A stretch of 64,000 bases of DNA, from assembly GCF_002943565.1 (NCBI RefSeq), contig NZ_PJCH01000001.1, positions 124,001-188,000 of the forward strand, given 5' to 3'. The translations under genes and the position numbers were made by a program. Within the stretch, counting starts at the first letter, position 1, and each line of letters opens with the position of its first letter. Source of the stretch: Hyphococcus luteus (GTDB taxonomy: Bacteria; Pseudomonadota; Alphaproteobacteria; Caulobacterales; Parvularculaceae). The notes beneath the pieces are model-generated. The model worked only from the letters and a program-made list of their open reading frames with translations, did not search any database and had not been told where the DNA came from. Shown here in pieces: positions 11,480 through 34,357 of the stretch.

Positions 11480-11491
11480 CTAACATGTCAG
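11480..11491. promoter_or_regulatory. operator a (CTAACATGTCAG) ahead of the TonB-dependent receptor
   Basis: This site matches 11 of 12 positions of the island consensus CTAACATGTTAG. It lies 35 bp upstream of the receptor start on the minus strand. TATACT (11490-11495), a possible -10 box on that strand, overlaps its edge, so a bound repressor would block transcription start. Assignment to the GntR regulator at 27656 is inferred. Confidence 0.7.
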
Positions 11492-11927
11492 TATAAAGTT
11501 GACAAGCCCTTTTTGGCTTCCGTAACTAGGGACGCCTCAAGAGGAGCGCCAAGCCTTAAGCAAGGGGCGACAGGCCCCACAGGACAGGCGCGATTAATCT
11601 GAGAGAAGTTAGTGCATTGTTTTTATGTATTTATTTTAATTGCAAATCTTCCGGCCCCGGGCTGACGAACGAATTTCCACCGGCCCGTTCCATTTCTCCC
11701 CGGCGCGCGCCATGGTCTTGCCGTTCCAATCTAACATGTTATTCTGATGCAGCTCAGCGCGCTTACCGGAAAGCGGGGGTCGTGACGAGCCGACTACGCT
11801 GTTTCAAAATAGGGCCCGCGCGGGGCTTTTGCATGCCGATTGCCCGAGGACTGAAAACCAGACTCGCAAAAACCGGACAACCGGCGGCGCTAGTCATCGC
11901 CAAGGGCTTGCTTCACAAGTTGCAAAC
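11492..11927. other. divergent intergenic region between the receptor and the enolase-family operon
   Basis: No convincing gene is seen. It contains operator b and the 5' leader of the plus-strand operon. A short open frame at 11617-11931 has no recognisable protein features and overlaps the operator, so I do not call it. Confidence 0.5.
11731..11742. promoter_or_regulatory. operator b (CTAACATGTTAT) ahead of the first enolase-family operon
   Basis: This site matches the island palindrome CTAACATGTTAG at 11 of 12 positions. It sits 186 bp upstream of the plus-strand gene at 11928, in the divergent gap with the TonB receptor. The distance implies a long leader or a promoter close to the site. 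It is likely bound by the GntR regulator (inference). Confidence 0.7.
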
Positions 11928-12932
11928 ATGAAAATCACGTCATTTAAAACGACCTCTCTGGCCGCCGGCATGTCGCGCCTTTGCATCGAAGCGGACGACG
12001 GCGCGGCGGGAAATTGGATCATCGCAAGCGCGCTGCAATCCGTCGCTGAAAAACTCGCCGACGCGGCGCTCATCGGTCAGGAACCGCGCAGCACAACCTC
12101 GCTCTGGCATGACATGCTCGACCGCGCCGGAAACGATTTGCAAGCGCGCGCCGCCGCAGCAGCCCTTGACGTCGCCTTATGGGATCTGAATTCAACTCGC
12201 GACAACGAACCACTCTGGAAAAAAATCGGGGGATCCCAAAAACCTGCGAACGCGCATCTCAGCATCACCGAGCGCGCCTCCGGCGCCACCCAAAGCGACG
12301 ACGTATTTTTTCAGCAAGCAGCGCCTTTTGGGTTTCGCGAGGGTAAAGTAAGCGCTTGTCTGACTTCAAAAAGCCTTCCCGATCGTATCGGAAAATTGTT
12401 TTCGGCGCTCGACGCCAGCGCCCAACCGCCATCGCTTTATATAGGCGCGCAAGGCCGCTGCGCGCCTAAAGACGCGATCGCCGCCATCAGTAAACTCGAA
12501 CAGCTTTTCGACATTACAGCCATCGAGGCGCCCTGCCCGACGTGGGACATCTCCGGTACAAAGAAGGTAAGCGAGAATATAAAAGCGGCTGTGTTCAATG
12601 ACCTTTCCATATTCGGACGCGAAGGATTGCTTTCCCATTTCCGGCGGCGCAGCCTGGATATTGTCCAGCTTAGCGTTCTAAAAGACGGCGTTACGGGCGT
12701 GCTGGAGCTGGCGGATGCGGCATTCGGATACGAGCTGCCCATCCTCATAGCATCCTCGCCAGGCAATATCGGCGCACATTTCGCCGGGGCTCTTCCCTAT
12801 TTCATGAGCCTTGAAATCAGAGACCTTCCCTCGAAACAAACAGCCCCATCAGCCGTGACCATCTCCAATGGCTGGGCGCAGCCCGGAGACGCTCCCGGTT
12901 TAGGCATTAACTGGGCGCAACCGTCTGCGTGA
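11928..12932 (+). CDS. degenerate enolase-superfamily (MR/MLE) protein, probably non-catalytic
   Basis: I chose the ATG at 11928, whose MKIT start parallels the next gene, over an in-frame ATG at 11829; this gives 334 residues. It aligns along its length with the neighbouring MR/MLE protein (DVALWDLNS, WKKIGGS, DGVTG) but has lost key residues. The first metal Asp is Gly173, the third metal ligand is Asn224, and the second Lys of the KxK motif is Ser142; only Glu200 is kept. It is probably a structural or regulatory partner of the intact paralogue 38 bp downstream, or a decaying copy. The reading frame is intact. Confidence 0.7.
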   Translation: MKITSFKTTSLAAGMSRLCIEADDGAAGNWIIASALQSVAEKLADAALIGQEPRSTTSLWHDMLDRAGNDLQARAAAAALDVALWDLNSTRDNEPLWKKIGGSQKPANAHLSITERASGATQSDDVFFQQAAPFGFREGKVSACLTSKSLPDRIGKLFSALDASAQPPSLYIGAQGRCAPKDAIAAISKLEQLFDITAIEAPCPTWDISGTKKVSENIKAAVFNDLSIFGREGLLSHFRRRSLDIVQLSVLKDGVTGVLELADAAFGYELPILIASSPGNIGAHFAGALPYFMSLEIRDLPSKQTAPSAVTISNGWAQPGDAPGLGINWAQPSA

Positions 12933-12970
12933 CGCCCGCCCCTGACAACAGACCACTGGATTGAACGCTC

Positions 12971-14137
12971 ATGAAAATAACCGGCTTCCGTTCTGAAACC
13001 TACTTTATGAAAATGGACCGGGAAGTCGCGGATGCGAACTTGCCCAGCGGCGTCGAGATCATGCCTGCATCCATCCTCTTTCTTGAAACGGATGAGGATA
13101 TAACCGGCGTATCGCTGGGGTATGGCGGCGGCGTCGAGCATCTTTTCCATTTGATAGAAGGCGAAGATCCGAGAGACGTTCTTGGATTGTGGATCAAGAT
13201 CAACGACTACCTGCACAAGGCCGGCAACGAGGGGGCGGCGACTCTCGTCTTCAGCGCCATCGATATGGCGTTATGGGATTTGAAGGCCAAGATAGCCGAT
13301 GAGCCTCTATGGCGCACGCTTGGCGCGCGCGAGGGCCGGGTCAAGGCTTATGCGAGCGGACTTGACTACAGCCTTTCCGATGACGAGCTGTTTTGCTTTT
13401 ACCGCCGCATGGCGGAAATGGGCGTCGACAGCGGCAAGCTGAAAGTCGGCCTGGATATCGACGCGGACATTCGCCGGCTCGGCATCATGCGCGAGGCGCT
13501 GAGCATCGCGTCGGACAGGCCGGGCCTGATGATCGATTCCAACGAATATTGGTCGCCGAAACAGGCTGTTCGCTACATCTCGAAAATCGAGGAGCGGTTC
13601 GACCTGATCTGGGCTGAAGAACCGGCTCGCCGGTGGGACTATGACGGTCTCCGCCTTGTGTCGCAGCAGGTGCGCACAGCGGTGGCGACCGCCGAAAACC
13701 TGAAAAGCATAGCGGACATATATCCCCTGATCGCCAACGAAGCGGCGGATGTGCTCAATCTCTCAAGCGGGCATTCCGGCGTCACCGGCTGCCGGCAGAT
13801 TGCGAACATGGCCTATGCGCACAACGTCCCCGTATCGATGATGAACTGCCAGGCAAATTTCATGGCCCAGGTCGCCGCGGCGCTTCCCGGCCACACAATG
13901 ATGGAAGTCGTGGACCCCGGGCGCGAGCACTGTCTGAAATATGACAACTATGTGCAAGACGGCTTCATTCATCTTTCCGACGCCCCGGGTTTTGGAATAG
14001 ATGTCGATGAAGCCATCCTCAAAGATTTGCAGGAAAACCCGCCAAAAGGAAAAGGCGCGTTCCCTTTTCCGAGGCGCGAAGGCGCGGGACGTTATCTTGT
14101 GCCCCCGTCGCCTAGCGAAACGCCCTGGTCATCCTGA
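12971..14137 (+). CDS. mandelate racemase/muconate-lactonizing enzyme family protein (sugar-acid dehydratase-like)
   Basis: The 388-residue enolase-superfamily member has an intact active site. K156 and K158 form the KxK base motif, and metal ligands are D189 (MIDSNEYW), E216 (WAEEP) and E242 (TAEN). Members of this group dehydrate sugar acids to 2-keto-3-deoxy acids or racemise them; the exact substrate is not predictable. It follows the degenerate paralogue by 38 bp, downstream of operator b. A C-terminal extension of about 30 residues rich in Pro, Lys and Ser is unusual. Its end is convergent with the minus-strand operon, 20 bp away. Confidence 0.82.
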   Translation: MKITGFRSETYFMKMDREVADANLPSGVEIMPASILFLETDEDITGVSLGYGGGVEHLFHLIEGEDPRDVLGLWIKINDYLHKAGNEGAATLVFSAIDMALWDLKAKIADEPLWRTLGAREGRVKAYASGLDYSLSDDELFCFYRRMAEMGVDSGKLKVGLDIDADIRRLGIMREALSIASDRPGLMIDSNEYWSPKQAVRYISKIEERFDLIWAEEPARRWDYDGLRLVSQQVRTAVATAENLKSIADIYPLIANEAADVLNLSSGHSGVTGCRQIANMAYAHNVPVSMMNCQANFMAQVAAALPGHTMMEVVDPGREHCLKYDNYVQDGFIHLSDAPGFGIDVDEAILKDLQENPPKGKGAFPFPRREGAGRYLVPPSPSETPWSS

Positions 14138-14157
14138 CCCGGCGGCGGAGCCTCGCC

Positions 14158-15258
14158 TTAACTGACGCGAAATCGCGCAAAGGCCTCTTTGGTGAAGTCA
14201 GTGGAAGCGCCCGGCACTTCCGGCGACAGGCAGTAGCCGTCCTTTAGCTGTATCTGATGTTCAAATGGCCCAGCCTCCCAAAGCGGGATCACTTCAAGCA
14301 ACCAGTTGTTCGGGATCGCTTTCACGAGGTGCTGGTGAACCTGCATGAGATCGCCGGCGTGCGGACAAACCGGCAGGCCGAACGATTCCGCTAAAGACGC
14401 CACCTGAAGCCACGGCGTTACGCCGCCGATCCGGCATACATCCACCTGCACCACATCGACGCCATTCCTTTCGATGAAATCGCGGAACATGTGCGTTGAA
14501 TAGACATGCTCGCCCAGGGCGATTGGCGACGTTGACTGTTCGCGAAGCTTCGCATGCGCGCGGACATCGTCCGGATGAAGCGGCTCTTCAATCCATTTCA
14601 CATCGAAATCGGCAAGCCTTCGCGCCGCCTCCTGCGCTTTTCTCAAATCCCATTTCTGATTGGCGTCGACCATAAGATCGATTCCGTCGCCGATTTCGGA
14701 CCGCACCGCCGCCACGCGCCGCAAATCTTCCGACAGATCGTCAAGCCCGACCTTCATTTTCAATGTCCGGTAGCCCTGATCGATCAGCATGCCGGCTTCC
14801 CGGCGCAATTGCTCAACCGAATAGTTCAACCATCCGGCATGGGTGTTGTAAATCGGCATCTTGCCGGCATGGGCGCCGCCAAGCAGCCGCCAGAGCGGTT
14901 CCCCGGCGGCTTTGGCCAGAATATCCCACAAGGCGATATCGACAGCAGCCTGCGCCATTGTCGTCGCGCCGGCCCGCCCGATCCAGTGCGCCTTGCCGTG
15001 ATATAATTTCGACCAGATCTGCCGGACATTGCGCGGATCTTCGCCAATGAGCTCGTCAATATAGAGCGAATCCAGGACGGCCTGCAGCACCTTGCCGCCT
15101 GCGCCGACCGTCACAGTGTACCCGCATCCGGCAACGCCGGCGTCGGTATCGACGCGCAGGCCGACAAATTCGAGCCGCTCTACGGACTGCATGCTGTCGG
15201 CGATCGCGCCGCCGACAGGCACTTCAAGAACAAAGCTCTCCGCAGCTGTTACTTTCAT
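14158..15258 (-). CDS. enolase-superfamily dehydratase, L-fuconate dehydratase-like
   Basis: In this 366-residue protein, K167 and K169 form the KxK motif. Metal ligands are D198 (VDANQKWD), E224 (WIEEP) and E250 (GEH), and the acid/base His is H300 in CPHAG. The signatures VDANQxWD, PDDVxxHA, GEH, GGV and PHAG followed by HQHL recall L-fuconate dehydratases, so I infer dehydration of an L-fuconate- or D-arabinonate-like acid to the 2-keto-3-deoxy acid. It is the last gene of the minus-strand unit HpcH aldolase, hydratase, SnoaL-like, dehydratase. It is cytoplasmic. Confidence 0.8.
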   Translation of the reverse strand: MKVTAAESFVLEVPVGGAIADSMQSVERLEFVGLRVDTDAGVAGCGYTVTVGAGGKVLQAVLDSLYIDELIGEDPRNVRQIWSKLYHGKAHWIGRAGATTMAQAAVDIALWDILAKAAGEPLWRLLGGAHAGKMPIYNTHAGWLNYSVEQLRREAGMLIDQGYRTLKMKVGLDDLSEDLRRVAAVRSEIGDGIDLMVDANQKWDLRKAQEAARRLADFDVKWIEEPLHPDDVRAHAKLREQSTSPIALGEHVYSTHMFRDFIERNGVDVVQVDVCRIGGVTPWLQVASLAESFGLPVCPHAGDLMQVHQHLVKAIPNNWLLEVIPLWEAGPFEHQIQLKDGYCLSPEVPGASTDFTKEAFARFRVS

Positions 15259-15329
15259 AAACCGCTCTTAAGAAACTCCATCGGACTTGACCGTGCCGTC
15301 GTTTCAGACTTTTACGATAAAATCTCGGT

Positions 15330-15797
15330 TCAAACATCGCGCGCGATTTCGGGCGGATCCATCGGATAACCAAGACCCTTATAGTCGTAATCGCCAATCA
15401 TGTGGTTCTGGACGGGTTCCTGGATGGCGGGGCACGCATAATAGGCGCGGATTTCCTTGATCAGGCCGCGTTCGGAAAAAATGTACCACTCATCCCCGCG
15501 CAGATACACGCCGGCCTTCGGTTTGAAATGGGTCCATTCAATAACGGCCTCGCGCTTTTTTTCATCGACGATGACGCGATCGATTGTCCAAATCGAGCCG
15601 AACGTTTTCACCGCGTTGACCCAGCCCTCTGCGATAGCCTTGGCGCCGAAGAAAGTGCCCTGCGGGGCGCCGCTCGGAAAATAGTGATTAGCATCCGGTT
15701 CAAAGCAGCGGATCATCTTCTCTGCATCCGCTTCGTTGCAGCCGTCGAAATATTCCCGGATCGTCGCTTCCAATCCAGCCGCCGACACATCCCTCAT
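15330..15797 (-). CDS. SnoaL-like / NTF2-fold protein
   Basis: The 155-residue protein is predicted to be a cone-shaped NTF2/SnoaL fold: an N-terminal helix (ATIREYFDGCNEAD), FEPDANHYFPSG, then WTIDRVIVDEKKREAVIEWTHFKP and DEWYIFSERGLIKEIRAYY. Such proteins act as small isomerases, hydratases or cyclases, or merely bind ligands; the reaction here is unknown. It lies between the FucD-like dehydratase and the 2-keto-4-pentenoate hydratase homologue, 9 bp after the latter, so it is clearly in the same operon. A polyketide role is unlikely given the context. Confidence 0.72.
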   Translation of the reverse strand: MRDVSAAGLEATIREYFDGCNEADAEKMIRCFEPDANHYFPSGAPQGTFFGAKAIAEGWVNAVKTFGSIWTIDRVIVDEKKREAVIEWTHFKPKAGVYLRGDEWYIFSERGLIKEIRAYYACPAIQEPVQNHMIGDYDYKGLGYPMDPPEIARDV

Positions 15798-15806
15798 CTC
15801 TCTCTC

Positions 15807-16637
15807 CTAACTTGCTTGTTTTTTTGACGCCACACAGGGCTCGCCGACGATCGTCACGCTGACGGCGCCGAGTCGATCGATGTCGCCGCGCGCCTGTGAA
15901 TGTCCGGCCAGCCGGTAGGACCTAGTGCATGTGCCCGGCAGCACAATGTCGCCGGCGGCCAGACCGCCCCCGAACGGCGCAAGCGCATTTGCAAGCCACG
16001 CAACGCCGCTTCCCGGATGTCCCAGGATAGCTTTCGTGTTGCCCGTTTCCACGACCTCGCCGTCTATCTCGAGCGTCGTTTCAAGATCGTCCAGCGGGAG
16101 ATCGCGCGGAGAAATCCTGTCTTCGCCAAGCACCACCAGCGCCGAGGAACCATTATCGGCCACCGTATCCTGCAACCTGATGCGCCAGTTCGCGATTCTG
16201 GAATCGATAATCTCGAAACAAGTGGCCACATAGGCGGTGGCGTCGAGAACGTCTTGCAGCGTCACGCCAGGCCCTTTCAGGTCCGACGCAAGAATGAACG
16301 CAGGCTCGACCTCGATCTGCGGATCGATCAGGGAAGACAAGTCGAGCGGCTGCTTCGGATCGTGCATCATCGTATTCATCAAATGGCCATAGTCCGGTTC
16401 GTCAACGCCGAACATTTCCTGCATTGCTTTGGCGGTCAGACCGATTTTATGGCCCACCACGCGCTCGCCAGCGGCCGTCCTGGCGTCAATATTCAGCTTT
16501 TGCACCTCATATGCTTCCTGCAACGTCATATCGGGAGCAATATCCGTTAACGGCGCAATGGGCATGCGCGATGTTTCAGCATCGCGAAGCCGTCTTGCTA
16601 GACTTGAGACCTTTTCCGTATCTTCGCCTTTGTTCAT
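15807..16637 (-). CDS. 2-keto-4-pentenoate hydratase-like protein (FAH superfamily)
   Basis: The 276-residue protein is of the MhpD/HpcG type. It has a KIGLT motif, the metal-binding pattern PQIEVEPAF, and DNGSSALVVLG and GHPGSGVAWLAN segments. Relatives hydrate 2-keto-4-enoates to 4-hydroxy-2-oxoacids, which HpcH/HpaI aldolases then cleave. That is exactly its partner here, since its start overlaps the aldolase stop by ATGA. No ring-cleavage genes are present, so the substrate may be a dehydrated sugar acid rather than an aromatic product (inference). Confidence 0.8.
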   Translation of the reverse strand: MNKGEDTEKVSSLARRLRDAETSRMPIAPLTDIAPDMTLQEAYEVQKLNIDARTAAGERVVGHKIGLTAKAMQEMFGVDEPDYGHLMNTMMHDPKQPLDLSSLIDPQIEVEPAFILASDLKGPGVTLQDVLDATAYVATCFEIIDSRIANWRIRLQDTVADNGSSALVVLGEDRISPRDLPLDDLETTLEIDGEVVETGNTKAILGHPGSGVAWLANALAPFGGGLAAGDIVLPGTCTRSYRLAGHSQARGDIDRLGAVSVTIVGEPCVASKKQAS

Positions 16638-17485
16638 TTTTGATCTTCCACATTTCCAGATGTTGAACCCCGGGCGGCCGACACGACATGCTTTGCACCA
16701 TGGACAAGCATGCGGCTGTCAAAGCTTGCGCATTGCAGGGCAAAGCCTTTCGCCCGCCAGAGGGCGGACTCTTCAGGGTTGTCGATGTAAATGCCGGCGG
16801 CGACGCCGTTCGCGAGATTCAAGGAGTAATCGCCGATGGCGGCGTAAATATCCTTGCCGCCCGGCGGCAGGCTCAGGGACAAGGCAAGATCGTAGGGCCC
16901 GATAAAGACAGCATCCACGCCCTCCACCGCAGCGATCTCATCCGCATTGTCCAATGCGGCCTTTCCTTCGAGCTGCACCACAACAAACGCCGCTTCGGAC
17001 AATTGCCGCAACGGATCGTCGAGACCGTTGAATTTCTGGAGAGGGGAAAATCCGCGCGCGCCAGAGGGCGGAAATCGTGCTGCATCGACTATCGCTTTTG
17101 CCTGCGCGGGACTTTCAACATGCGGCGCCATAACGCCGCTCGCGCCGATATCGAGCACTTTTCCGATGAGCCCGGGCGTCGGCTCCCAGACGCGAACCAG
17201 CATCGGCAGGCGACAAACGCGCCCCGCCAGAATCAGATTCTCCAACTGTGAAAAGTCAGTGGAGGAATGCTCAAGATCGAGCACGACGAAATCAAAACCG
17301 GCGAGCGCCATAGCCTCTACGACGCCAGCCGAGGAAAGTTCAATCAGGAAAGTCCCGAGCGCGAATCCCTGCTTCGCTTTGCGGCGAAGCGTGTTTCCCA
17401 ACAATAAGGTTTCTGCAAAAACGCCCGCGCTTTCGCCGCCACGCTCCCCTCGCGACGGCCCGTCGGTGATGTTGTCAGCAACCAT
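16634..17485 (-). CDS. HpcH/HpaI family aldolase
   Basis: The start is the ATG at 17485 with GGGAGCGG a few bases before it; a longer frame reaches 17581 but adds a segment unlike the family. The protein has 283 residues. The class II pyruvate aldolase signature is present: VVLDLEHSS, LVRVWEP, APHVES and VFIGPYDLALSLSLP. It should split 4-hydroxy-2-oxoacids or 2-keto-3-deoxy acids into pyruvate plus an aldehyde (for example lactaldehyde). It is the first gene of the minus-strand operon that runs to 14158, with operator c 165 bp upstream. Confidence 0.82.
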   Translation of the reverse strand: MVADNITDGPSRGERGGESAGVFAETLLLGNTLRRKAKQGFALGTFLIELSSAGVVEAMALAGFDFVVLDLEHSSTDFSQLENLILAGRVCRLPMLVRVWEPTPGLIGKVLDIGASGVMAPHVESPAQAKAIVDAARFPPSGARGFSPLQKFNGLDDPLRQLSEAAFVVVQLEGKAALDNADEIAAVEGVDAVFIGPYDLALSLSLPPGGKDIYAAIGDYSLNLANGVAAGIYIDNPEESALWRAKGFALQCASFDSRMLVHGAKHVVSAARGSTSGNVEDQK

Positions 17486-17649
17486 GTCCGCTCCCTGCAG
17501 TCCGGAACCGCGAAATGCAGCCTGCGGAAAGGCGATTGCCGGCCATCGCCGCCGACAAGCCAATCTCATTGGCGCAATCACTCAAACGCGCGCGCGGCCA
17601 TGTTTTCCTGACATGACCAAACGCTTGATTTCGCTTAGCACCCCTCAAA

Positions 17650-17661
17650 CTAACATGTCAA
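17650..17661. promoter_or_regulatory. operator c (CTAACATGTCAA) ahead of the aldolase operon
   Basis: This site matches 10 of 12 positions of the island palindrome and lies upstream of the minus-strand aldolase gene. The gap between operators c and d is GC-rich with no gene. Confidence 0.65.
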
Positions 17662-17925
17662 TGATGTAATTGGATCCCGCCGCCCCTATTCCTGCCGCCT
17701 TCGCCGCCGGATGCACGCGCCGCCGCCGGCGGCGCGGCGGCGCCTCCGCTACGGACAGGCCGGCCGGAAGGAAATACGCCGTTTTGCAACAAGAAAATCT
17801 CTATTTTCTGTTTTTACCGTGACCGGCAGGTCCATATAGAGGTGGAAAGAAATCGCCCCAAGGCCCTTGGCCGGCGCCTTGTTGGAATAGCGCGCTTGCC
17901 TCTTGCAACTTTGTTCCGCCCCGAT

Positions 17926-17937
17926 CTAGAATGTTAG
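17926..17937. promoter_or_regulatory. operator d (CTAGAATGTTAG) ahead of the aldo/keto reductase operon
   Basis: This site matches 10 of 12 positions, with an exact ATGTTAG right half-site. It ends 53 bp before the aldo/keto reductase start on the plus strand. It is the most divergent left half of the set. Confidence 0.6.
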
Positions 17938-17990
17938 CTAGTTGAATTGCGACGCTGGCTGCGTCGCCTCCATTTATGTCAGGAAGGCCG

Positions 17991-19034
17991 ATGACAACGC
18001 CAGGACAGCAGACACTCCACAATCGTCGCTTCAATACGCCCAAAAGGCGCAGCATCAGCATGAGCGAGTTTGGTTTCGGGGCGGCGCCGCTTGGAAACTT
18101 TCGCCGGACCCTAAGCGAAGAAGAGTGCGACGCCACGCTCGCCCGCGCCTGGGAGCTTGGCGTACGCTATTTCGATACGGCGCCGCTCTACGGTTTCGGA
18201 CTTTCTGAGCTTCGCGTCGGGCGCCTGCTGCAAACCAAAAGCAGCGACGAGTATACCCTGTCATCGAAAGTCGGCAGGCTGCTCGAGCCCTGCCCGCCGG
18301 AAGAAGCCGACGGCATCATCTTTGAAAACATACCGCCCTTCAAATTCGTCTATGATTACTCATATGACGGCGTCATGCGCTCCTATGAAGAGAGCCTGCA
18401 ACGCCTTGGCGTCGACCGCATCAACATTCTTTATGTTCACGATATCGATGCATTCAACCATGGCGGCCGGAACGAAGCCATCGCGCGCGCGCGCGAACTG
18501 ATGGACGATGGCGGCTGGCGCGCGCTGAGCGAACTGCGTGACAGCGGCGCGATCGACGCTGTTGGAATCGGCGTGAATGAATGGGAGCCCTGCTCTCTTA
18601 TGCTTGAGCTTGCCGACCCGGATCTTTTTCTCCTCGCAGGCAGATATACGTTGCTGGAGCAGGAGCCGGTCGACACGCTGTTTCCGGAATGCGAAAGGCG
18701 CGGCGTCAAGATCGTCATCGGCGGCCCGTACAATTCAGGAATCCTGGTGGGACGGTCTACCTACAACTATTTCCAGGATATTCCTGACAACATCCGTCAC
18801 AAAGTCAGGGCGCTTGACGATATTTGCCGCGAACACGGCGTCGCCATGGGCGCCGCCGCTCTGCAATTCGTGCTCGCGCACCCGCTCGTCGTAAGCGTCA
18901 TCCCGGGCTCCCAGACTTTGCAGGAGCTGGAAACCAATCTCTCCTTTGTCGGCGCCGACATCCCCGACGCTTTCTGGCGGGATTTGCGTGCGGCGAATCT
19001 GATCGCCGAGAACGCTCCGACGCCAGCAAACTAA
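17991..19034 (+). CDS. aldo/keto reductase, D-threo-aldose (L-fucose) 1-dehydrogenase-like
   Basis: I prefer the ATG at 17991, preceded by AGGAAGG, over the ATG at 17976; this gives 347 residues. The TIM-barrel AKR tetrad is visible: Asp and Tyr in FDTAPLYG, Lys in SSKVG, His in LYVHDID. FDTAPLYGFGLSE and GFGAAPLGN are typical of the D-threo-aldose/L-fucose dehydrogenase and pyridoxal 4-dehydrogenase group. In this setting I infer oxidation of an aldose to its lactone with NAD(P). It is the first gene of a three-gene operon with the FAH-family and KGSA dehydrogenase genes. Confidence 0.82.
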   Translation: MTTPGQQTLHNRRFNTPKRRSISMSEFGFGAAPLGNFRRTLSEEECDATLARAWELGVRYFDTAPLYGFGLSELRVGRLLQTKSSDEYTLSSKVGRLLEPCPPEEADGIIFENIPPFKFVYDYSYDGVMRSYEESLQRLGVDRINILYVHDIDAFNHGGRNEAIARARELMDDGGWRALSELRDSGAIDAVGIGVNEWEPCSLMLELADPDLFLLAGRYTLLEQEPVDTLFPECERRGVKIVIGGPYNSGILVGRSTYNYFQDIPDNIRHKVRALDDICREHGVAMGAAALQFVLAHPLVVSVIPGSQTLQELETNLSFVGADIPDAFWRDLRAANLIAENAPTPAN

Positions 19035-19051
19035 CGGCAGGCATCCGGACA

Positions 19052-23357: not shown

Positions 23358-23433
23358 GCCGTCTTCCTCCGCTTCCAAAGCCTTGTGACGCGATCTTATG
23401 ATCGCCGCCGAATTCGCGCCTTTTTTTCAGGCG

Positions 23434-24753: not shown

Positions 24754-24808
24754 GTTAATGAGCCGAAAAATGGGCTGTTTTCCCAATCTTGTTTCAGATT
24801 TCGCTTTA

Positions 24809-24820
24809 TTAACATGTTAG
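24809..24820. promoter_or_regulatory. operator e (TTAACATGTTAG) ahead of the MFS/aldehyde dehydrogenase unit
   Basis: This site matches 11 of 12 positions, with the core TAACATGTTA perfectly palindromic. It lies between the two MFS genes and upstream of the minus-strand one at 24753. Confidence 0.7.
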
Positions 24821-26395: not shown

Positions 26396-27268
26396 TCAGG
26401 AATAAAGAGGCAATCCGCCGGCCGGCGCGTCAAGAAGCTGCACCGTCCCCGTCTCCACCTCTGTGACAAACCATTTTTTCCGCCCAGGACCATATGCAAG
26501 GTTGGTCGGCATGCTGCCCTGCACCTTCAATCTGGATGCAACCGCGCCGCTCTTGTCCACGACCGCGACAACGCCTTCTCCAAAAACGCAGGCATAGAGC
26601 GAGCCGTCAGCGGCGAATTTCATTCCGTCCGGACCTTTGAATTCTTCCGGGTTGAAATGCTCAATGACATTGGCGAATGTTTCGCGCTCGCCGACAACCC
26701 GGCCGTTCTCGCATTTATATCGATAGACGGCGCCTGTCAGCGTTTCGTTGACATAGAGGTCTCCGGCGGCGTCTATTGCGACGCCGTTGGTGAACTGAAT
26801 GCCTTTATCGACAAGTTCGACCGCGCCGGTTTTTACATCAACACGGTATACGCGGCCGTCATAATCGAGATTGCGGTACTCCGGATTGAGCTCTCCATTC
26901 GGCGCCGCCTCCTCAATCTCGATGCCGGAATCTGTAAGATACAGATCGCCATGCGGACCGAAAGCGAGATCGTTCAGAAATGTAAATCGCTTTCCGTCGC
27001 ACGCTGTGGCGACGACCTCGCATTCGCCGGCAAGCGTGATCCTGAGCAGCGCCTTTTGATGCGTTTCAGCGACCCAGATATTGCCTTCGCGGTCCATCGC
27101 AAGGCCGTTGGGACGTCCGGTTTTCGCAATGACGCGCCTGGATGTTCCGTCAGCGGATATATGCGTGATGCAGCCGGTGTCGGGAGACATCTCCACGATA
27201 AGAAGGCTGCCGTCCCCAAGGACGACAGGACCTTCGGGAAACTCAACCTTGTCAGCAAAAATGGCCAT
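26396..27268 (-). CDS. SMP-30/gluconolactonase/LRE-like family protein
   Basis: The ATG at 27268 (MAIFADKVEFPEGP) follows a GGAGACGG element, giving 290 residues; the frame continues upstream to 27373 but that would leave operator f nearly touching the start codon. This is a six-bladed beta-propeller lactonase. The metal ligand Glu is in FPEGP, Asn in GRPNGLAMD and LNDLAFG, and Asp-Gly in FKGPDGMKFA. It should hydrolyse the sugar lactone made by the aldo/keto reductase to the open acid. It is cytoplasmic, with no signal peptide. Confidence 0.82.
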   Translation of the reverse strand: MAIFADKVEFPEGPVVLGDGSLLIVEMSPDTGCITHISADGTSRRVIAKTGRPNGLAMDREGNIWVAETHQKALLRITLAGECEVVATACDGKRFTFLNDLAFGPHGDLYLTDSGIEIEEAAPNGELNPEYRNLDYDGRVYRVDVKTGAVELVDKGIQFTNGVAIDAAGDLYVNETLTGAVYRYKCENGRVVGERETFANVIEHFNPEEFKGPDGMKFAADGSLYACVFGEGVVAVVDKSGAVASRLKVQGSMPTNLAYGPGRKKWFVTEVETGTVQLLDAPAGGLPLYS

Positions 27269-27382
27269 TTGCGCCCATCCGTCTCCATCCCAAGCCGAGC
27301 TCGGCGCTCGCCGTTTTTTGCGCGATGCGCTGTTCTTTATGCGTTGAAAACAGGCTGTTGACGTCTTCAACACAAATCCACA

Positions 27383-27394
27383 CTAACATTTTAG
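27383..27394. promoter_or_regulatory. operator f (CTAACATTTTAG) ahead of the SMP-30/MFS unit
   Basis: This site matches 11 of 12 positions. It is located 115 bp before the SMP-30 start, in the divergent SMP-30/gntR intergenic region that also holds operators g and h. Confidence 0.65.
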
Positions 27395-27458: not shown

Positions 27459-27470
27459 TTAAAATGTTAG
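27459..27470. promoter_or_regulatory. operator g (TTAAAATGTTAG) in the SMP-30/gntR divergent region
   Basis: This site matches 10 of 12 positions, with an exact ATGTTAG half. It is 76 bp centre-to-centre from operator f. It could serve either direction. Confidence 0.6.
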
Positions 27471-27602
27471 ATTGCCGCACAAACCGAGACGTGGCAGATT
27501 AGGCGACCGCGCCCAAATCGCCCCCGAAATTCCGCCGCCGCTCCCGCAAGCTTTCAGGCCGGCCCGCACCATTTTGATCAAATTGGTTTTTGACGGCCCT
27601 TG

Positions 27603-27614
27603 CTAACATGCTAA
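27603..27614. promoter_or_regulatory. operator h (CTAACATGCTAA) ahead of gntR, likely autoregulatory
   Basis: This site matches 10 of 12 positions. It sits 42 bp before the preferred gntR start. An upstream TTG and an ATG lying inside the operator could in principle start a longer protein, but the site's place in the operator series argues that the coding region begins downstream of it. Confidence 0.65.
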
Positions 27615-27655
27615 CGTCTCCGGAATCTAAAAAACAGCAGCAGCAAGAGACAAAA

Positions 27656-28348
27656 ATGGTCGCTTCGCCACGGCGGATTCAACCCGGCAATTCCGAACTG
27701 TCCAAAACGGAGCGTGTCTATCAAAACCTACGCCGCAGAATACGCGAATTGGAGCTTCCTCCCGGATCGCGCCTTCAAAAAAATGAAATTGCGGACGAAC
27801 TCGGCGTTTCGCGGGCGCCGGTGAATGAAGCCATTGCGAAATTATCGGAAGAAGGCCTCATCGATGTTTTTCCGCAAAGCGGCAGTTTCGTGGCCCCGAT
27901 TCGTCCTGAGGACATCCGGGAGAGCATGCTCATCCGCACCGGGCTGGAAGTGGAGGCCGTTCGCAGAATCACCATGATGCCGGACACGTCGGATCTGCTG
28001 AACAGGCTTGATGCGAACCTCGCCCAACAAACCCAGGCGCTGGAAAAAAACGACATCGCCTGGCTCGACACCCTCGATGAAGAATTCCACAACACGCTGT
28101 ATTCCGTGCTGAACGCGCCCAAAGTGCACCGCCTTTTGGACACATGCCGCGCGCTGCTGGACAGGCCCCGTTTCAAAACGCTTTGGGAAGCCGGACGGCC
28201 TTTTGCAACGCTGAAGGAACACCAGCGCATCGTAGACGCCATCAGAACCGGAGACCCGGAATACGCAGGACAAGCCATGCGGCTTCACCTGCGCATGGTG
28301 GCCAAATCGGTTGAGGGCGACCTGCCGAATTTGAGCGAAGCCGGCTAG
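27656..28348 (+). CDS. GntR-family transcriptional regulator, FCD (FadR-type) subfamily
   Basis: The preferred start is the ATG at 27656, giving 230 residues. The N-terminal winged helix-turn-helix is GntR type: ERVYQNLRRRIRELELPPGSRL, then KNEIADELGVSRAPVNEAI as recognition helix and a wing with VFPQSGSFVAPI. The C-terminal all-helical FCD domain binds a metal and a small acid, with candidate ligands in DEEFHNTLY, LKEHQRI and MRLHLRM. It is the only regulator in the island and lies centrally. Ten copies of a palindrome, one ahead of its own gene, are the natural binding sites. Ligand-relieved repression by a sugar acid or keto-acid is the likely mode (inference). Confidence 0.88.
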   Translation: MVASPRRIQPGNSELSKTERVYQNLRRRIRELELPPGSRLQKNEIADELGVSRAPVNEAIAKLSEEGLIDVFPQSGSFVAPIRPEDIRESMLIRTGLEVEAVRRITMMPDTSDLLNRLDANLAQQTQALEKNDIAWLDTLDEEFHNTLYSVLNAPKVHRLLDTCRALLDRPRFKTLWEAGRPFATLKEHQRIVDAIRTGDPEYAGQAMRLHLRMVAKSVEGDLPNLSEAG

Positions 28349-28404
28349 CCTGCTCCTCTTAACAGCCTCATGACAGGGAGACGATGGAGCTAGCGCAAAA
28401 GCGC

Positions 28405-30558
28405 CTACTCCCCGTCCGCTTTCAGACCTTCACGGGCGGCGCGCGCCTGCTCGCCGACATAGGCCCTGATCGCCTCGACCTCGCCCAAGCCCAGCTTGTC
28501 GTGGAAGCCGACCATGCCCTTCGAACTCAAGGCGCCATCCAGCACAATCGCTTTCCATGCGTCGGGCTCTGTCAACGCCGCAGACCTGCGCAGATCCGGG
28601 ATGACGCCGGCTGACCAGGCCGAACCTCCATGGCAACGCATGCAATGGCCCGCATATAAGCCCATCCCCTGCATGAGCTGAGACTCCGGCGCCTCTTCCG
28701 CAGGCGGATTAAGCGGTAAAACTGGCGGCGTGTAATCCGGAAGCGCGGCCGATCCGCCGAGTTTGAACACCAACAGGCGTCCATTGGGACGAACATGAGG
28801 ATTTTGCACATAAGGAGAGAAAATGCCGACTACTCCGCCAAATCCTGCGAGCACGGCGACATATTGCTGTCCGTCTATCTCATAGCTCGCCGCTGCTGCA
28901 ACCGGGCCGCTCTGCGCGTCAAAACTCCAGATTTTTTCGCCATCACTCGCCTTATAAGCTGAAAATTGACCGCTTGGCTCGCCTTGGAAGAGCAGATTTC
29001 CCCCGGTCGCAAGAATCCCGCCATAGCCGACGCCCTCATGCTGCACGCGCCACACGGCCTTCTGTTTGACAGGGTCGAAAGCGGTGATCGCCGCGCTGAC
29101 CGTTTTTATAGATTGTCGATACTCGTCAATGCTGGCCGGGCCGGCATTCGTCGGTGACGCATTCCCCAAATTCCACTCGCCTGCATGGAACCGAAAATTC
29201 ACTTCATCTTGATAGCCGAACATGTGGTCCTGCGTTGGGATATAAACCAACTCAGTATCCGGACTATACGCCATTGGATGCCAGCTATGCGCCCCATAAG
29301 CTCCCGGACGCGCGACAAAATTCTTGTCGTTATTGGCTGACCATCGCGCCCCTTTAATCACGACAGGACGACCGGTTTCGTTATCGACGCCTTCAGCCCA
29401 GTTCACAGAAACAAATGGCTGCGGCAGCGTCGCTAGCTCGCCATTCGTCCGGTCAAGCACATAGAAAAACCCGTTTTTGGGCGCCTGCATCGCAACCTTG
29501 CGGGTCTTGCCGTCGATCACAAGCTCCGCAAGAATGATCGGCTGGGTCGCCGTAAAATCCCATGACTCCGCGGGTGTTTCCTGGTAGTGCCATTTGTAGG
29601 CGCCGGTATCCGCATCCAATGCGACGATGGACGACAAAAACAGATTGTCGCCTTTACCGTCAGAACGAACGCGATAATTCCAGGGGCTTCCATTTCCGAC
29701 GCCGATCAACACCTGGTCGAAATCTTTGTCATAGACAATGGCGTCCCACACCGTGCCGCCGCCGCCATACTCATACCACTTGCCGAACCATGTCGCAGAC
29801 GCCACATCCTTCATGACTGCGTCTGACGCCTCGCCGTCGGGCCCTGCAGAAGGATCGCCGGGCACGGTATAAAAACGCCACTCCTTTTCACCTGTCTTGA
29901 TGTTATAGGCCGTCACATACCCGCGGACGCCGTATTCAGCGCCGCCATTGCCGATAATGACCTTGTCTTTGACAATCCGGGGGGCGCCCGTAATCGTGTA
30001 TGGGGTTTCGGGATCGAATGTCGCCGTCGTCCAGACCACTGCGCCGGTCCTCGCATCAAGCGCGATAAGCCGTCCATCTAAAGCGCCGACAAACACCTTG
30101 CCGTCAGCAACCGCAACCCCGCGATTTCCGACGTCACAGCAGGCGTCGTAGCCTTTCTCTCCAGCAACTTCCGGGTCAAAAAACCATAATTGATCTCCTG
30201 TTTTTCCGTCGAACGCATACACTTTCGACCACGCGGTCGAGACGTAAATGACGCCGTCAACAACAACAGGATTCGCCTCCTGCCCGCGGAACGTGTCGAG
30301 ATCGGCGTACCAGGCAAGACCAAGCTGACCGATATTGTCTTCGCTGATCTGATCCAAAGGACTGTAGAAGGCTTCACGATATGAACCGCCCACGACGGAC
30401 CATTCTCCCGAAGCGGCGGTTTCCTTGGCCGCACGCCCACAGGAAGCAACGCCAGCCGACGCTGCGAGCAAAACGCCCGCCAACATTAACCTTGCCGCCC
30501 TATGAAACGTTTTCACGCCCGGCTCGCCTTGCTTTCTAAACAAAATGCTTGTCGCCAT
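28405..30558 (-). CDS. PQQ-dependent quinohemoprotein alcohol dehydrogenase
   Basis: The 717-residue protein has an N-terminal export signal ending in a lipobox-like GVASC, so it may be a periplasmic lipoprotein. An eight-bladed PQQ propeller with the vicinal-cysteine motif DACCDVGNRG follows. The C-terminal cytochrome c domain has a haem site CMRCH near residue 638. The family oxidises alcohols or aldehydes in the periplasm and passes electrons through haem c to the respiratory chain. It is the last gene of the unit DUF4185, acyl-CoA ligase, PQQ dehydrogenase. No PQQ synthesis genes are in the window, so the cofactor must come from elsewhere. Confidence 0.87.
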   Translation of the reverse strand: MATSILFRKQGEPGVKTFHRAARLMLAGVLLAASAGVASCGRAAKETAASGEWSVVGGSYREAFYSPLDQISEDNIGQLGLAWYADLDTFRGQEANPVVVDGVIYVSTAWSKVYAFDGKTGDQLWFFDPEVAGEKGYDACCDVGNRGVAVADGKVFVGALDGRLIALDARTGAVVWTTATFDPETPYTITGAPRIVKDKVIIGNGGAEYGVRGYVTAYNIKTGEKEWRFYTVPGDPSAGPDGEASDAVMKDVASATWFGKWYEYGGGGTVWDAIVYDKDFDQVLIGVGNGSPWNYRVRSDGKGDNLFLSSIVALDADTGAYKWHYQETPAESWDFTATQPIILAELVIDGKTRKVAMQAPKNGFFYVLDRTNGELATLPQPFVSVNWAEGVDNETGRPVVIKGARWSANNDKNFVARPGAYGAHSWHPMAYSPDTELVYIPTQDHMFGYQDEVNFRFHAGEWNLGNASPTNAGPASIDEYRQSIKTVSAAITAFDPVKQKAVWRVQHEGVGYGGILATGGNLLFQGEPSGQFSAYKASDGEKIWSFDAQSGPVAAAASYEIDGQQYVAVLAGFGGVVGIFSPYVQNPHVRPNGRLLVFKLGGSAALPDYTPPVLPLNPPAEEAPESQLMQGMGLYAGHCMRCHGGSAWSAGVIPDLRRSAALTEPDAWKAIVLDGALSSKGMVGFHDKLGLGEVEAIRAYVGEQARAAREGLKADGE

Positions 30559-30651
30559 TGTCTAACGCCCTCTTCCTTCATGATTGTCGCGCGCGTGTTC
30601 GCGGAGACGCACAGATTCAACGCAAAGAAGGGAGGCTCTCCCTTCGCGCGA

Positions 30652-32358
30652 TCACGCCGTCTTGGATACATTTAAATTCAGCTCCCGGACCATCGCGTTG
30701 CGAATTTCAAACTTCTGCACTTTCCCGGTGACCGTCGTCGGGAATTCCTCAACAAACCGGATATAACGCGGCACTTTATGCCGTGTGATTCTGCCATCGC
30801 AGAATTCGCGCACGTCTTCCTCGCTGAGCGCGGAGCCAGCCTTCACCCTGATCCAGGCGCAAAGTTCTTCCCCGTATTTTTCGTCAGGCACGCCGACCAC
30901 CTGCACATCTGCGACATTCGGGTGCTGGAAAAGAAACTCTTCGATTTCCCGCGGATACAAATTCTCGCCGCCCCGAATCACCATGTCTTTCAGGCGGCCG
31001 ACGACATTTCCGTAACCGTCTGCATCGATGACGCCGAGGTCGCCGGTATGCATCCAGCCGCCGGCGTCAATCGCTTCCGCTGTGCGCTCGTCGTCCCCCC
31101 AATAACCAAGCATCACGGAATATCCGCGCGTGCAGATTTCTCCTGGCGTTCCGCGCGGCGCAGTTTCTCCATTTTCCTCGACAATTTTGACTTCGAGATG
31201 CGGGTGAACCGTTCCGATCGTCGAAACGCGACGCTCGATGGGATCGTCGGGCATGCTTTGAAAGCTGACGGGACTGGTTTCCGTCATGCCATAGGCAATC
31301 GTAATGTCCTTGATGTTCATCTGTTCGATGACTTGTTTCATCACCTCGATCGGACATGGCGAACCGGCCATGCAGCCGGTGCGCAAGGACGCCAGGTCGT
31401 GATTCGAAAAGGCGGGGTGCTCCAGCATGGCGATGAACATCGTCGGAACCCCAAAAAGGCCGGTGCACTGTTCGGCCTCAACCGTTTCCAGAGCGGCTTG
31501 CGGATTAAAAATCTCGCTCGGATAAACCATCGTCGCGCCATGCGTAAGACAACCGAGATTGCCCATCACCATGCCGAAGCAATGGTAAAGCGGCACCGGA
31601 AGACACAGCCGGTCGCCTTGGCGAAGACCCAGGCGCCGCCCCACAAAGTAGCCGTTGTTCAAAATATTGCGGTGCGACAGCGTCGCGCCTTTGGGATGAC
31701 CGGTCGTACCGCTTGTGAACTGAATGTTTATTGGGTCTTCCGGCTTCAACGAAGATCCAGCGCTTTTCACTTTGGCGATGAGAGAATCGTTGTCCAGACG
31801 CAGCAGCGTGTCGAACTGGATCCAGCCTTTCCTGTTTTCACCGCCGATTTTTAAAAGATATTGGAGGGCGGGAAAGGTTTCACTGCGCAGGCCGCCGGGC
31901 TCGCTTTCCGCAATCTGGGGCTCTAGCGCCTCCATCATCGCCACATAGTTGCTGGAGCGAAAACGCTCCGCAGCGACAAGCGCCTTTATCCCGACCTTGT
32001 TGAGGGTATAGGCGAGTTCGGAAGACCTGTAGGCTGGATTTATCGTAACGAGGATAAGCCCCAGCTTCGCCGCGGCGAACTGCGTGAGCGCCCATTCCGC
32101 ACAATTGGGCGACCAGATTCCGATCCGGTCCCCGGCGCGCAAACCAAGCCCATAAAACCCGGCGGCGAGCGCCTCTGCGCGATCGTTGAGCTCCTTGTAC
32201 CGCCACCGCAAATTCTGATGAGCGCTGATAATGGCGTATTCGTCCGGCCATTTGCGCGCCGCTTCGTCCAGCGCGTCGCCTATTGTCATTTCCAGCAGCG
32301 GAGGCTCCTTGGCCCCGACGACATGGCTTTTTTCCTGCACGACCATAACTGCTCTCAA
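30652..32358 (-). CDS. AMP-binding acyl-CoA synthetase (medium-chain/ACSF2-like)
   Basis: The 568-residue ANL-family ligase has the phosphate loop [23 protein letters not shown], the adenine motif [20 protein letters not shown], and the catalytic lysine region [12 protein letters not shown]. It activates a carboxylic acid as the acyl-AMP and then the CoA thioester; the pattern fits medium-chain or branched acids rather than acetate. It lies between the secreted DUF4185 protein and the PQQ dehydrogenase on the same strand, which would fit oxidation of an alcohol to an acid followed by CoA activation. The substrate is unknown. Confidence 0.83.
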
Positions 32359-32483
32359 TTCCGGCGCTTTCGCCGCTCTCCAGGCGCGCCGGCATAAGGG
32401 CTTCCGGCGCGCGCCTGCTTTGATCCATCAGGACTCCTGCGGGACGCTGATTTCGGCGCCCGCAAAAGCCGCACGCCGCAAGC

Positions 32484-34166
32484 TTAGTTCGCCTCAATAC
32501 GCGTGCGGAACAGCACCGTGTGATAGGGAATCCAGGTTGAGACGTTCCAGATCAGGTCCACATCGTCGCCGACCTCGTCAATCCACGGCTCAATGATGTT
32601 CGGACCGTAGAGCAAACCGTAATCGACATTCTCGTTGAGATTTGGATGATCATAGCCCCGCGCACAGCTTCCCGAACAATCAGGGTGATAGAGAATGCCG
32701 CCGGATGCATATTCGCCGGTCGGCGGGCTGGCCTCGGGATCGCCCGGATAAAAGACGTCTTCCGGCGGCGACCACGGCCCCCAGGGATCGTCGGCGGTTC
32801 TCATCCGGATCGCGCCATTTCCAATATCGACGTCACCGCACTGGCTTGCGCCGATAAACAGCTCCACCACGCCGCATGTCTGAAAGACCTGCACCGGGAA
32901 GGTGGACAGACTGCCGCCATAAAACATCACCCACTTGTTCAGATGTTCGACCCACACGACGCTCATTTGACCGACAATATCGTGCTGCTCGTCCTGAAAC
33001 CCGGACGTGGTCGAATCGAGATCAAGCGGAACCGCATCCGCCTCCGACGTGCTGAATGTCGGCACGCCGCCGGAAAAGCCGGTGAAATAATGCACCGTCC
33101 AGCTGAAATTCGCGCCTGTCGGCATGTCTGCATAGGCGAAGTAGAGGCTCGCCGGCCGGCCGTTTGCGGCAACGCCGGCGAAATTCGTTCTGCCGAACAA
33201 GAACACGCGCCGATAGGAACCGGAAGAGCCGGCGACATTATAGTCCTGATTTGCCCCCCCGGCGCCGTTGGACGGCCGGAAATCCTGCACGGTCGCCGCC
33301 GTGACGTTCATGAACTTGTTGGTGACCCACTTTTTGCTGTTCGTGTAAAAACGGTCGTCTGTCGTGCTTCGAACGCCCACGCGCAGCGTAAAGCCGCTGG
33401 AGAGGATGCGGCCGGCGTCGGCCGTGCTGTACATCGTGCTTGTCTGATCCGAACAGAATCCGGAACCGGCAATCGGCCAGCCGAAGGCGTTTCTCATCGT
33501 GTCGTTCAGGCAACCGAACGTGCCGTCCACGCAAATGCCGGTAAATCCCTGCTCATCATCGTATTCTTCTCCCCAGAAAGCGAGACCGCCGTCGCACGTC
33601 ATGTCGGCGCCGTTGCTCGTGCAGTTCGAGTTGGTCAAACAACCCTGAGGCTTGGAATGCAGAAAAATCGCGTATTCGTCGGTCCCGTTGCTCCACCCGG
33701 TCGACGGCGTTTTGAAGGCGTCGAGCCAGTGATTGTCGATATTCAACGCCTTCGCCTTGGCCGAGCTTGAATGTTGCGCCAACAAGACAGTAGGCAGATT
33801 GGTCGGCGAGATCAGAGAAGAATCGCTCCATGAGCTGAGATCGATCGAACCGAACGCATCGTCATAGGTGTAAGCCGTCTGCCCGGAAAGCGGATGATAG
33901 TCGGGGTCGATCGGATCTCCGCTTTCGGTTTCATGAGTGTCGCCCAAAAGCACCTTCAACTCGCCGTCATGCACATATGTCCAGCCGAGATCCGTGCCCG
34001 AAAAAGCGATTGTAATCGGCGATATGTTGGCCGGATCGAGATTATCCGGGCTGGCGAACGGGCCGAGAATCGTCGTGCTCCCGGCGCTGGGGTCTGCGGC
34101 CGCCGGCGCGCTGGCGGCCATGATCGCCGACAGGCCCGCAACGCATAAATGACTAAGCTTGTTCAT
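32484..34166 (-). CDS. secreted DUF4185-containing protein
   Basis: The 560-residue protein has a Sec signal peptide (cleavage about residue 24, after PAAA). The mature part has DUF4185-like features of a five-bladed propeller: GTDLGWTYVHDGELKVLLGDT near the start, FGRTNF, WVEHLNKWVMFYGG, WGPWSPPEDVF, and YGLLYGPNIIEPW near the end. Several cysteines in the middle suggest disulfides and an extracytoplasmic location. DUF4185 proteins resemble polysaccharide-active propeller enzymes, but no activity is established that I can rely on. Two operators sit 117 and 180 bp upstream, the only closely spaced pair before a single gene. Confidence 0.72.
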   Translation of the reverse strand: MNKLSHLCVAGLSAIMAASAPAAADPSAGSTTILGPFASPDNLDPANISPITIAFSGTDLGWTYVHDGELKVLLGDTHETESGDPIDPDYHPLSGQTAYTYDDAFGSIDLSSWSDSSLISPTNLPTVLLAQHSSSAKAKALNIDNHWLDAFKTPSTGWSNGTDEYAIFLHSKPQGCLTNSNCTSNGADMTCDGGLAFWGEEYDDEQGFTGICVDGTFGCLNDTMRNAFGWPIAGSGFCSDQTSTMYSTADAGRILSSGFTLRVGVRSTTDDRFYTNSKKWVTNKFMNVTAATVQDFRPSNGAGGANQDYNVAGSSGSYRRVFLFGRTNFAGVAANGRPASLYFAYADMPTGANFSWTVHYFTGFSGGVPTFSTSEADAVPLDLDSTTSGFQDEQHDIVGQMSVVWVEHLNKWVMFYGGSLSTFPVQVFQTCGVVELFIGASQCGDVDIGNGAIRMRTADDPWGPWSPPEDVFYPGDPEASPPTGEYASGGILYHPDCSGSCARGYDHPNLNENVDYGLLYGPNIIEPWIDEVGDDVDLIWNVSTWIPYHTVLFRTRIEAN

Positions 34167-34282
34167 CCGATTTCCTCCTCCTTGCGTGCTCGTTAGGGGA
34201 GGCTGCGCGCTGACTATGCGCGCTGCGCCTATGAGACATTGCCGCCCGCGAGCATCCTATTGGGTGCCTACCGGAAGGCTAT

Positions 34283-34294
34283 CTAACATGTTAG
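34283..34294. promoter_or_regulatory. operator i, perfect palindrome CTAACATGTTAG
   Basis: This is the only copy matching the island consensus at all 12 positions. It lies 117 bp upstream of the DUF4185 start, in an AT-rich stretch, and is 63 bp centre-to-centre from operator j. Confidence 0.75.
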
Positions 34295-34345
34295 TAAGTG
34301 GTTTTCTAGGGATTTTTGTTATCTTTATGCTTTTTTGTTCCATTT

Positions 34346-34357
34346 CTAACATGTCAA
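34346..34357. promoter_or_regulatory. operator j (CTAACATGTCAA) ahead of the DUF4185 operon
   Basis: This site matches 10 of 12 positions and is identical to operator c. It is 63 bp (about six helical turns) from operator i, so both face the same side of the DNA. Confidence 0.68.

Follow-up and report, generated by a model that had tools for sequence, protein, structure and literature searches.

What controls the 25-kilobase (kb) catabolic island within a 64,000-nucleotide stretch of the Hyphococcus luteus genome (RefSeq assembly GCF_002943565.1, contig NZ_PJCH01000001.1, positions 124,001 to 188,000 of the forward strand), here called the window? The island encodes a GntR regulator of the FCD/VanR type (27656..28348, plus strand; PF00392 at 67.5 bits and PF07729 at 77.7 bits, both above cut-off) and contains ten copies of a 12-base-pair (bp) palindrome with the consensus CTAACATGTTAG, all falling within 22.9 kb. 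Our analysis indicated that this GntR protein very probably acts on the island through the ten sites.

The ten copies, a to j, differ from the consensus at 0 to 2 positions. Site a (11480..11491, CTAACATGTCAG) lies 35 bp upstream of the TonB receptor gene and contains a promoter-like -35 element, and site b (11731..11742, CTAACATGTTAT) precedes the ENO1-ENO2 operon. Site c (17650..17661, CTAACATGTCAA) is upstream of the HpaI-FAH-SnoaL-ENO3 genes, and site d (17926..17937, CTAGAATGTTAG), in which TAGAAT forms a promoter-like -10 element, is upstream of AKR-XylX-KGSADH. Site e (24809..24820, TTAACATGTTAG) stands ahead of MFS1-ALDH, and site f (27383..27394, CTAACATTTTAG) ahead of SMP30-MFS2, with site g (27459..27470, TTAAAATGTTAG) 76 bp from site f. 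Site h (27603..27614, CTAACATGCTAA) lies 53 bp upstream of the ATG of gntR. The perfect copy, site i (34283..34294, CTAACATGTTAG), is upstream of the DUF4185 operon, and site j (34346..34357, CTAACATGTCAA) follows at 63 bp, a distance that is also 63 bp in a relative, G022. All ten sites are intergenic, though intergenic DNA makes up 8.5% of the island. For site h, this holds with the gntR start at ATG 27656 and not with a start at TTG 27590; the ATG was preferred because G022 has an in-frame TAG six codons upstream of it. The initial annotation had reported these ten sites, their location in gaps between genes, and the presence of at least one of them in each of eight inferred transcription units, and all of this held. 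Eight units are a fair reading of the gene layout, and MFS1-ALDH and SMP30-MFS2 may form one continuous unit, for a total of seven; another relative, G041, has overlapping MFS genes. A weak match that had been placed within a gene at 8843 did not hold, since no match was found there at up to 3 mismatches.

At up to 2 mismatches, the excess of sites is clear: the window has 10 matches against a mean of 0.53 and a maximum of 2 under a second-order Markov null (60 runs), and in the intergenic DNA of the island (2,117 bases by the gene starts used), a first-order null gave a mean of 0.02 and a maximum of 1 (400 runs). The excess is modest at up to 3 mismatches (14 matches versus a mean of 6.33), and one of 100 shuffles also gave 14. 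The whole genome (4,922,247 bases, 16 contigs) was then scanned, with the reversed, not complemented, word as a control. At up to 1 mismatch, all 5 places found lie within the island. At up to 2 mismatches, there are 34 places, comprising the 10 island sites and 24 elsewhere, compared with 63 for the control word. The island sites have matrix scores of 15.9 to 21.9, each being left out of its own matrix, and the 24 outside places score 9.8 to 16.6. The proposal of an island-wide regulon, which a motif scattered over unrelated genes of the genome would contradict, is thus upheld by outside matches that stay at a chance-like background.

The sites are retained in part by relatives. The GntR protein is present in 4 of 62 genomes of the family, namely, the window genome, G022, G041, and G043. 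In G022, the gene order of the island is kept, and counterparts of 8 of the 10 sites occur in the matching gaps (scores of 11.5 to 21.5). Site c is identical there, as are the 12 bases of site b, which recur on the other strand in G043. Site a corresponds to CTAACATGTTAC in G022 and to CTAACATGTTAG in G043, and the G022 counterparts of sites d and i are CTAGTATGTTAG and CTAACATGTTAA, respectively. Sites f and g have counterparts in both G022 and G041, those of f being weaker; the partial island of G041, on an 11.2-kb contig, has these two sites only. The island of G043 is rearranged, and the shared genes are 51 to 86% identical; sites occur at the TonB-dependent receptor/ENO1, HpaI/AKR, and gntR/MFS2 genes, and a further one lies upstream of a gene that resembles, by eye, an alcohol dehydrogenase gene and that has no counterpart in the window. 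At up to 1 mismatch, the window genome (G000), G022, and G043 have 5, 5, and 6 matches, respectively, the island accounting for 5, 4, and 5 of them. Among the 24 genus mates that lack the GntR protein, there are 15 such matches in total, 0 to 2 per genome and none of them perfect.

Homologues of the regulator were searched in 385 genomes of the class, in two further families (17 and 23 genomes), and in 398 genomes of the phylum; among the 102 matches listed in the phylum search, the site count covers the 30 for which a locus was available, to the exclusion of the remaining 72. Sixteen genomes (15 different proteins) have a homologue that we call K-type, defined by a Lys in helix 2 and by Asn, Ser, Ala, or Thr in the recognition helix (K42 and N57, respectively, in the window protein); 12 of these genomes lie outside the family. 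Family members were left out of the site count because the matrix had been built from the window sites and because these genomes were scored on longer stretches. Outside the family, CTAACATG(T/C)TAG or its reverse complement was found in 11 of the 12 K-type genomes, within about 60 bp upstream of the matched gene stretch; the 11 genomes belong to four genera, which contribute five, four, one, and one. None of the 27 other homologues examined (28 rows, with one gene occurring twice), whose first position is Glu or Arg and whose second is Arg or His, has a site scoring at least 15, and three of them score 13.1 to 14.3. One genome, G459, encodes a homologue of each kind and has the site at the K-type gene alone. 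In G715, three perfect copies are located near ABC transporter genes, before the AKR gene, and between gntR and a dehydratase gene, and in G769, where AKR, GntR, and the dehydratase are all present, the site stands before AKR and before gntR. The K-type homologues form a single clade (support 96/92), and the operator accompanies this clade in four other bacterial families. The assignment of the sites to the GntR protein, which the initial annotation had already named as the obvious binder because it was the single regulator of its type there, thus has independent backing and is well supported at the level of sequence comparison.

The GntR model (predicted local distance difference test score [pLDDT] of 88.6) has six C-terminal helices (84-107, 112-130, 134-149, 155-175, 181-198, and 201-220), and its fold best matches a Brucella GntR (7u5q), followed by the VanR protein Atu1419. 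A predicted metal site of the Asp/Asn plus three His type (D141, H145, H189, and H211) is invariant in 36 rows. Relative to the conserved Arg of "SR," K42 lies 11 residues upstream and N57 4 residues downstream, and the two align with Glu34 and Arg49 of Atu1419 and FadR. In these two proteins, Glu34, Arg45, Thr46, and Arg49 are described as conserved residues that contact DNA (excerpts of PMC7797058); of Glu34, Arg45, and Arg49, only Arg45 is retained in the window protein, as R53, while the other two are replaced by K42 and N57. In five aligned solved chains (four different proteins), Arg occupies the second position in all five and Lys the first in none.

In published excerpts, the VanR group, represented by Atu1419 of Agrobacterium fabrum and AlkR of Pseudomonas, resembles the window GntR in its winged helix-turn-helix domain, six-helix FCD domain, short palindrome, and local regulon. 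The operators differ: those of Atu1419 (ATGTATACAT) and AlkR (ATTGTCAGACAAT) have GT on the left and AC on the right, whereas the window palindrome has AC on the left and GT on the right. It thus reads AC-N2-GT, inverted relative to the GT-Nx-AC of the family, and some sites have a degenerate half. The BioR-type FCD GntR proteins, with the operator TTATMKATAA, are likewise FadR-subfamily members with a palindrome outside the GT/AC consensus (excerpts of PMC4494728). The BioR word differs from the window palindrome. BioR controls biotin genes. The full 12-mer was not found in the full-text literature matches richest in operator words, a search that did not extend to supplements or RegPrecise, and no paper on the operator was found among the titles and abstract openings searched. 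A local catabolic regulon is of an ordinary kind; the operator is unusual for the GntR family. We infer that the two residue changes may cause the altered operator word, and clade membership would explain both as well.

We propose that the GntR protein encoded at 27656 would serve as the master regulator of the island. A GntR dimer would sit on the palindrome ahead of every transcription unit, gntR included, and would keep these units repressed until a sugar-derived ligand occupies the metal site of the FCD domain; repression released in this way is the likely mode of action. Close site pairs might be co-bound by a dimer of dimers through a short loop. In the window and its relatives, the pairs separated by less than 100 bp (63, 63, 74, 75, 75, 76, and 95 bp) are spaced near whole helical turns, with a P value of 0.018 for helical phasing when 4 pairs are taken as independent under one choice of period and range; the g-h distance (144 bp) and longer distances show no such phasing. 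The spacing hints at a tetramer of the kind described for Atu1419, for which a loop between two palindromes 190 bp apart has been proposed (excerpts of PMC7797058).

Several observations weigh against regulation of the island by GntR through these sites. The weakest island site, d (15.9), scores lower than the best outside place (16.6), so the two score ranges overlap. Neither G022 nor G041 has a counterpart of site e (24809) or site h (27603), and G041, whose island contig is incomplete, has no match at up to 1 mismatch. Outside the family, the K-type genome G646 carries only a degenerate CTGGCATGCTAG, and it is possible that its GntR has changed target. Since the K-type proteins are kin and two genera supply 9 of the 11 positive genomes, the operator and the residues might each simply mark the clade. 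Promoter scans over the ten sites found promoters no commoner than in shuffled DNA, and promoter-like matches overlap just the two sites a and d. In the window, no match at an E value of 1e-8 was obtained for four proteins of the K-type locus G396, namely, the UxaA-type dehydratase, the PF04909 lactonase, the SDR, and the FAH hydrolase. Furthermore, the motif does not match the FadR-subfamily consensus boxes, given as TKGT/ACMA in excerpts of PMC4494728. Its inverted form would suit a different regulator, encoded elsewhere, that binds the sites while GntR is a passenger or binds other DNA. We regard this as highly improbable, given the operator just upstream of the K-type gntR gene across four genera outside the family, its absence at the 27 other homologues examined, and the lack of any excess of the site in genus mates without GntR. 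GntR could also activate the units, or activate some and repress others, and the site-to-start distances, varying from 10 to about 200 bp, leave room for such a scheme. It appears unlikely, however, with a promoter-like -35 in site a and a -10 in site d, and both Atu1419 and AlkR are repressors (for Atu1419, see excerpts of PMC7797058). Our preferred reading, repression by GntR through the ten sites, also agrees with the general behavior of the group, in that most FCD/VanR regulators whose operators cover promoters act as repressors.

The genes under these sites fit a sugar oxidation system. Uptake would proceed via the TonB-dependent receptor (9313..11445, minus; PF00593, PF07715) and the transporters MFS1 (23434..24786, minus; PF07690) and MFS2 (24873..26333, minus; PF11700, PF07690). 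An AKR of the aldose 1-dehydrogenase type (17976..19034, plus; PF00248), an SMP-30 lactonase type (26396..27373, minus; PF08450), and enolase-superfamily dehydratases would then act in turn. Two of the latter are of the sugar-acid dehydratase type, ENO2 (12971..14137, plus; PF13378; best PDB relative, 2oz8) and ENO3 (14158..15258, minus; PF13378, PF02746; best PDB relative, 3tj4, 303 bits). ENO3 also matches L-fuconate dehydratase and, in the alignment, retains the positions that we take to be catalytic. Two branches may follow. One comprises an FAH-superfamily 2-keto-3-deoxypentonate (KDP) dehydratase type, which we presume to be XylX-like (19049..20212, start approximate, plus), with a strong match (9kkt, 378 bits; 2q18, a 2-keto-3-deoxy-D-arabinonate dehydratase, 58 bits), and an aldehyde dehydrogenase of the 2,5-dioxovalerate (KGSA) dehydrogenase type (20298..21872, plus; PF00171), with a weak one (best family NF052305, 106 bits, far under the cut-off of 750). 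This branch corresponds to Route II, would yield 2-oxoglutarate, and fits a pentose such as D-arabinose. The other, fitting L-fucose, comprises an HpcH/HpaI aldolase of the 2-keto-3-deoxy sugar-acid type (16634..17581, minus; PF03328; best PDB relative, YfaU 2vws) and a second aldehyde dehydrogenase (ALDH; 21927..23378, minus; PF00171, 529 bits).

The K-type loci elsewhere in the Alphaproteobacteria bear on the substrate. Beside GntR, six of them (G396, G098, G226, G324, G460, and G715) encode an AKR of the window's type, a UxaA-type dehydratase, and a lactonase of the PF04909 type. All but G226 gave an SDR match, all but G715 an FAH hydrolase match, and three of the six gave matches to ABC transporter genes. 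Three AKRs of K-type loci that were compared are 50 to 52% identical to the window AKR. The six loci resemble oxidative L-fucose (Route III) clusters, for which an SDR and an FAH-type last step are described (excerpts of PMC6336799 and PMC5507952), among them the FucR-regulated loci, where an oxidative L-fucose cluster is under a local regulator (excerpts of PMC5507952). Unlike those loci, the window island is without most of their enzymes; it shares the regulator and the AKR with the K-type clusters and otherwise has others, namely, the enolase-superfamily dehydratases, the KDP dehydratase, the KGSA-type dehydrogenase, the HpaI aldolase, the SMP-30 lactonase, and the two MFS transporters. G043 does have a G396-type lactonase. 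In L070 (G646 contig 28, 212578-213234), the K-type GntR gene was found, and AKR and cluster genes were unmatched in the 19.5 kb fetched. In Paraburkholderia, an AKR active on both D-arabinose and L-fucose is clustered with a D-KDP dehydratase; the nonphosphorylative D-arabinose Route II of Paraburkholderia mimosarum resembles the window in its AKR and D-KDP dehydratase and leads to 2-oxoglutarate (excerpts of PMC6336799). According to the same excerpts, the D-arabinonate dehydratase of P. mimosarum lies outside the enolase superfamily, and the enolase-superfamily dehydratases of the window recall Sulfolobus instead.

A double system is favored because the dehydratase and dehydrogenase would convert a pentose to 2-oxoglutarate and the aldolase and ALDH would convert L-fucose to pyruvate and lactate. 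The "sugar or sugar acid" oxidation of the initial annotation fits the gene content, and on balance we lean toward a narrower assignment, an enlarged version of the L-fucose/D-arabinose type of oxidation system. Another aldose or sugar acid, e.g., L-galactose or an algal deoxy sugar, is a rather less probable substrate: the closest PDB relatives of the AKR are L-galactose dehydrogenases, and no GH29 fucosidase was found in 28 genus genomes (3 of 14 control genomes were positive), but the same AKR and GntR types occur together in clusters resembling L-fucose loci, and the presence of KDP-dehydratase and KGSA-dehydrogenase types speaks for a pentose. The DUF4185 gene (32484..34166, minus), for a putative exported protein and distant GH183 candidate, raises a further option, that of a D-arabinan utilization locus in which this protein is a GH183 endo-D-arabinanase and the freed D-arabinose is oxidized to 2-oxoglutarate. 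Its PF13810 match (51.8 bits) exceeds the cut-off of 39.5, the characterized GH183/DUF4185 enzymes are endo-D-arabinanases (excerpts of PMC10115798 and PMC10509167), and the Route II enzyme types suit a pentose. However, the match is limited to profile positions 246-309, in the C-terminal part, and the first 250 residues have no Pfam hit. GH172 (PF11175) is absent from this genome, being present in G022, on another contig, and in G026, and G043 retains the island without DUF4185. We therefore consider a D-arabinan locus doubtful. An L-fucose/D-arabinose oxidation system remains our preferred reading of the island.

The DUF4185 protein was found in 3 of 28 genus genomes, and no homologue was detected in the 384 other genomes of the class sample or in viral contigs. 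D59 and D76, 17 residues apart, are conserved in the 3 rows of an alignment that contains no known enzyme. An identification as a proven GH183 enzyme was rejected: AlphaFold, run on 3 sequences, gave no usable model (pLDDT, 26.8), and a PDB profile search was empty. With these results and the lack of homologues, the protein was kept as a candidate only, and its role as a D-arabinan enzyme is weakly supported.

The remaining genes of the island encode a SnoaL-like protein (15330..15797, minus; PF12680), an FAH/MhpD-type hydratase (15807..16637, minus; TIGR03220 at 262 bits, under the cut-off of 408.8), a pyrroloquinoline quinone (PQQ)-dependent alcohol dehydrogenase with a cytochrome c domain (28405..30558, minus; TIGR03075, above cut-off), an acyl-CoA ligase (30652..32358, minus; NF009233, above cut-off), and ENO1 (11928..12932, plus; PF13378), an enolase-superfamily relative with altered metal-ligand stretches in the alignment. 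At three stretches, ENO1 has G, EA, and D in place of the D, EE, and E of ENO3, which we take to be the metal ligands. ENO1 and ENO2 are 60% and 89% identical to their G022 copies, and the two genes adjoin in three genomes; ENO1 is possibly a noncatalytic partner. The DUF4185 and PQQ alcohol dehydrogenase genes are absent from the 56 kb fetched from G043. On contig 8 of that genome (58154-60984), another putative alcohol dehydrogenase and an acyl-CoA ligase distinct from that of the window (31%) stand behind two sites, as if alcohol oxidation and CoA activation belonged to the regulon. The island is flanked here by genes for a dihydrolipoamide acyltransferase E2 (7755-8885) and Lon (35988-38384), neither of which turned up in the 37 kb of G022 and the 56 kb of G043 that were examined. 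Since the flanks differ between genomes, the island seems to be located at different places.

As for the origin of the system, we tentatively envisage, at somewhat less than even confidence, that a VanR-type clade switched its operator from GT-Nx-AC to CTAAC-AT-GTTAG, with Glu34 changed to Lys and Arg49 to a small or polar residue. This clade would run L-fucose/D-arabinose regulons in several alphaproteobacterial families, in clusters that resemble oxidative L-fucose loci, and its operator system would have been enlarged in Parvularculaceae to eight units, perhaps with a D-arabinan-releasing enzyme. With two residues, the paralogue pair of G459, and a defined operator, the clade offers a test case of how a very large family of bacterial repressors changes its DNA word. 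The motif could be used for finding regulons of a similar sugar type in unannotated Alphaproteobacteria, and the island suggests that Parvularculaceae may have a D-arabinose system.

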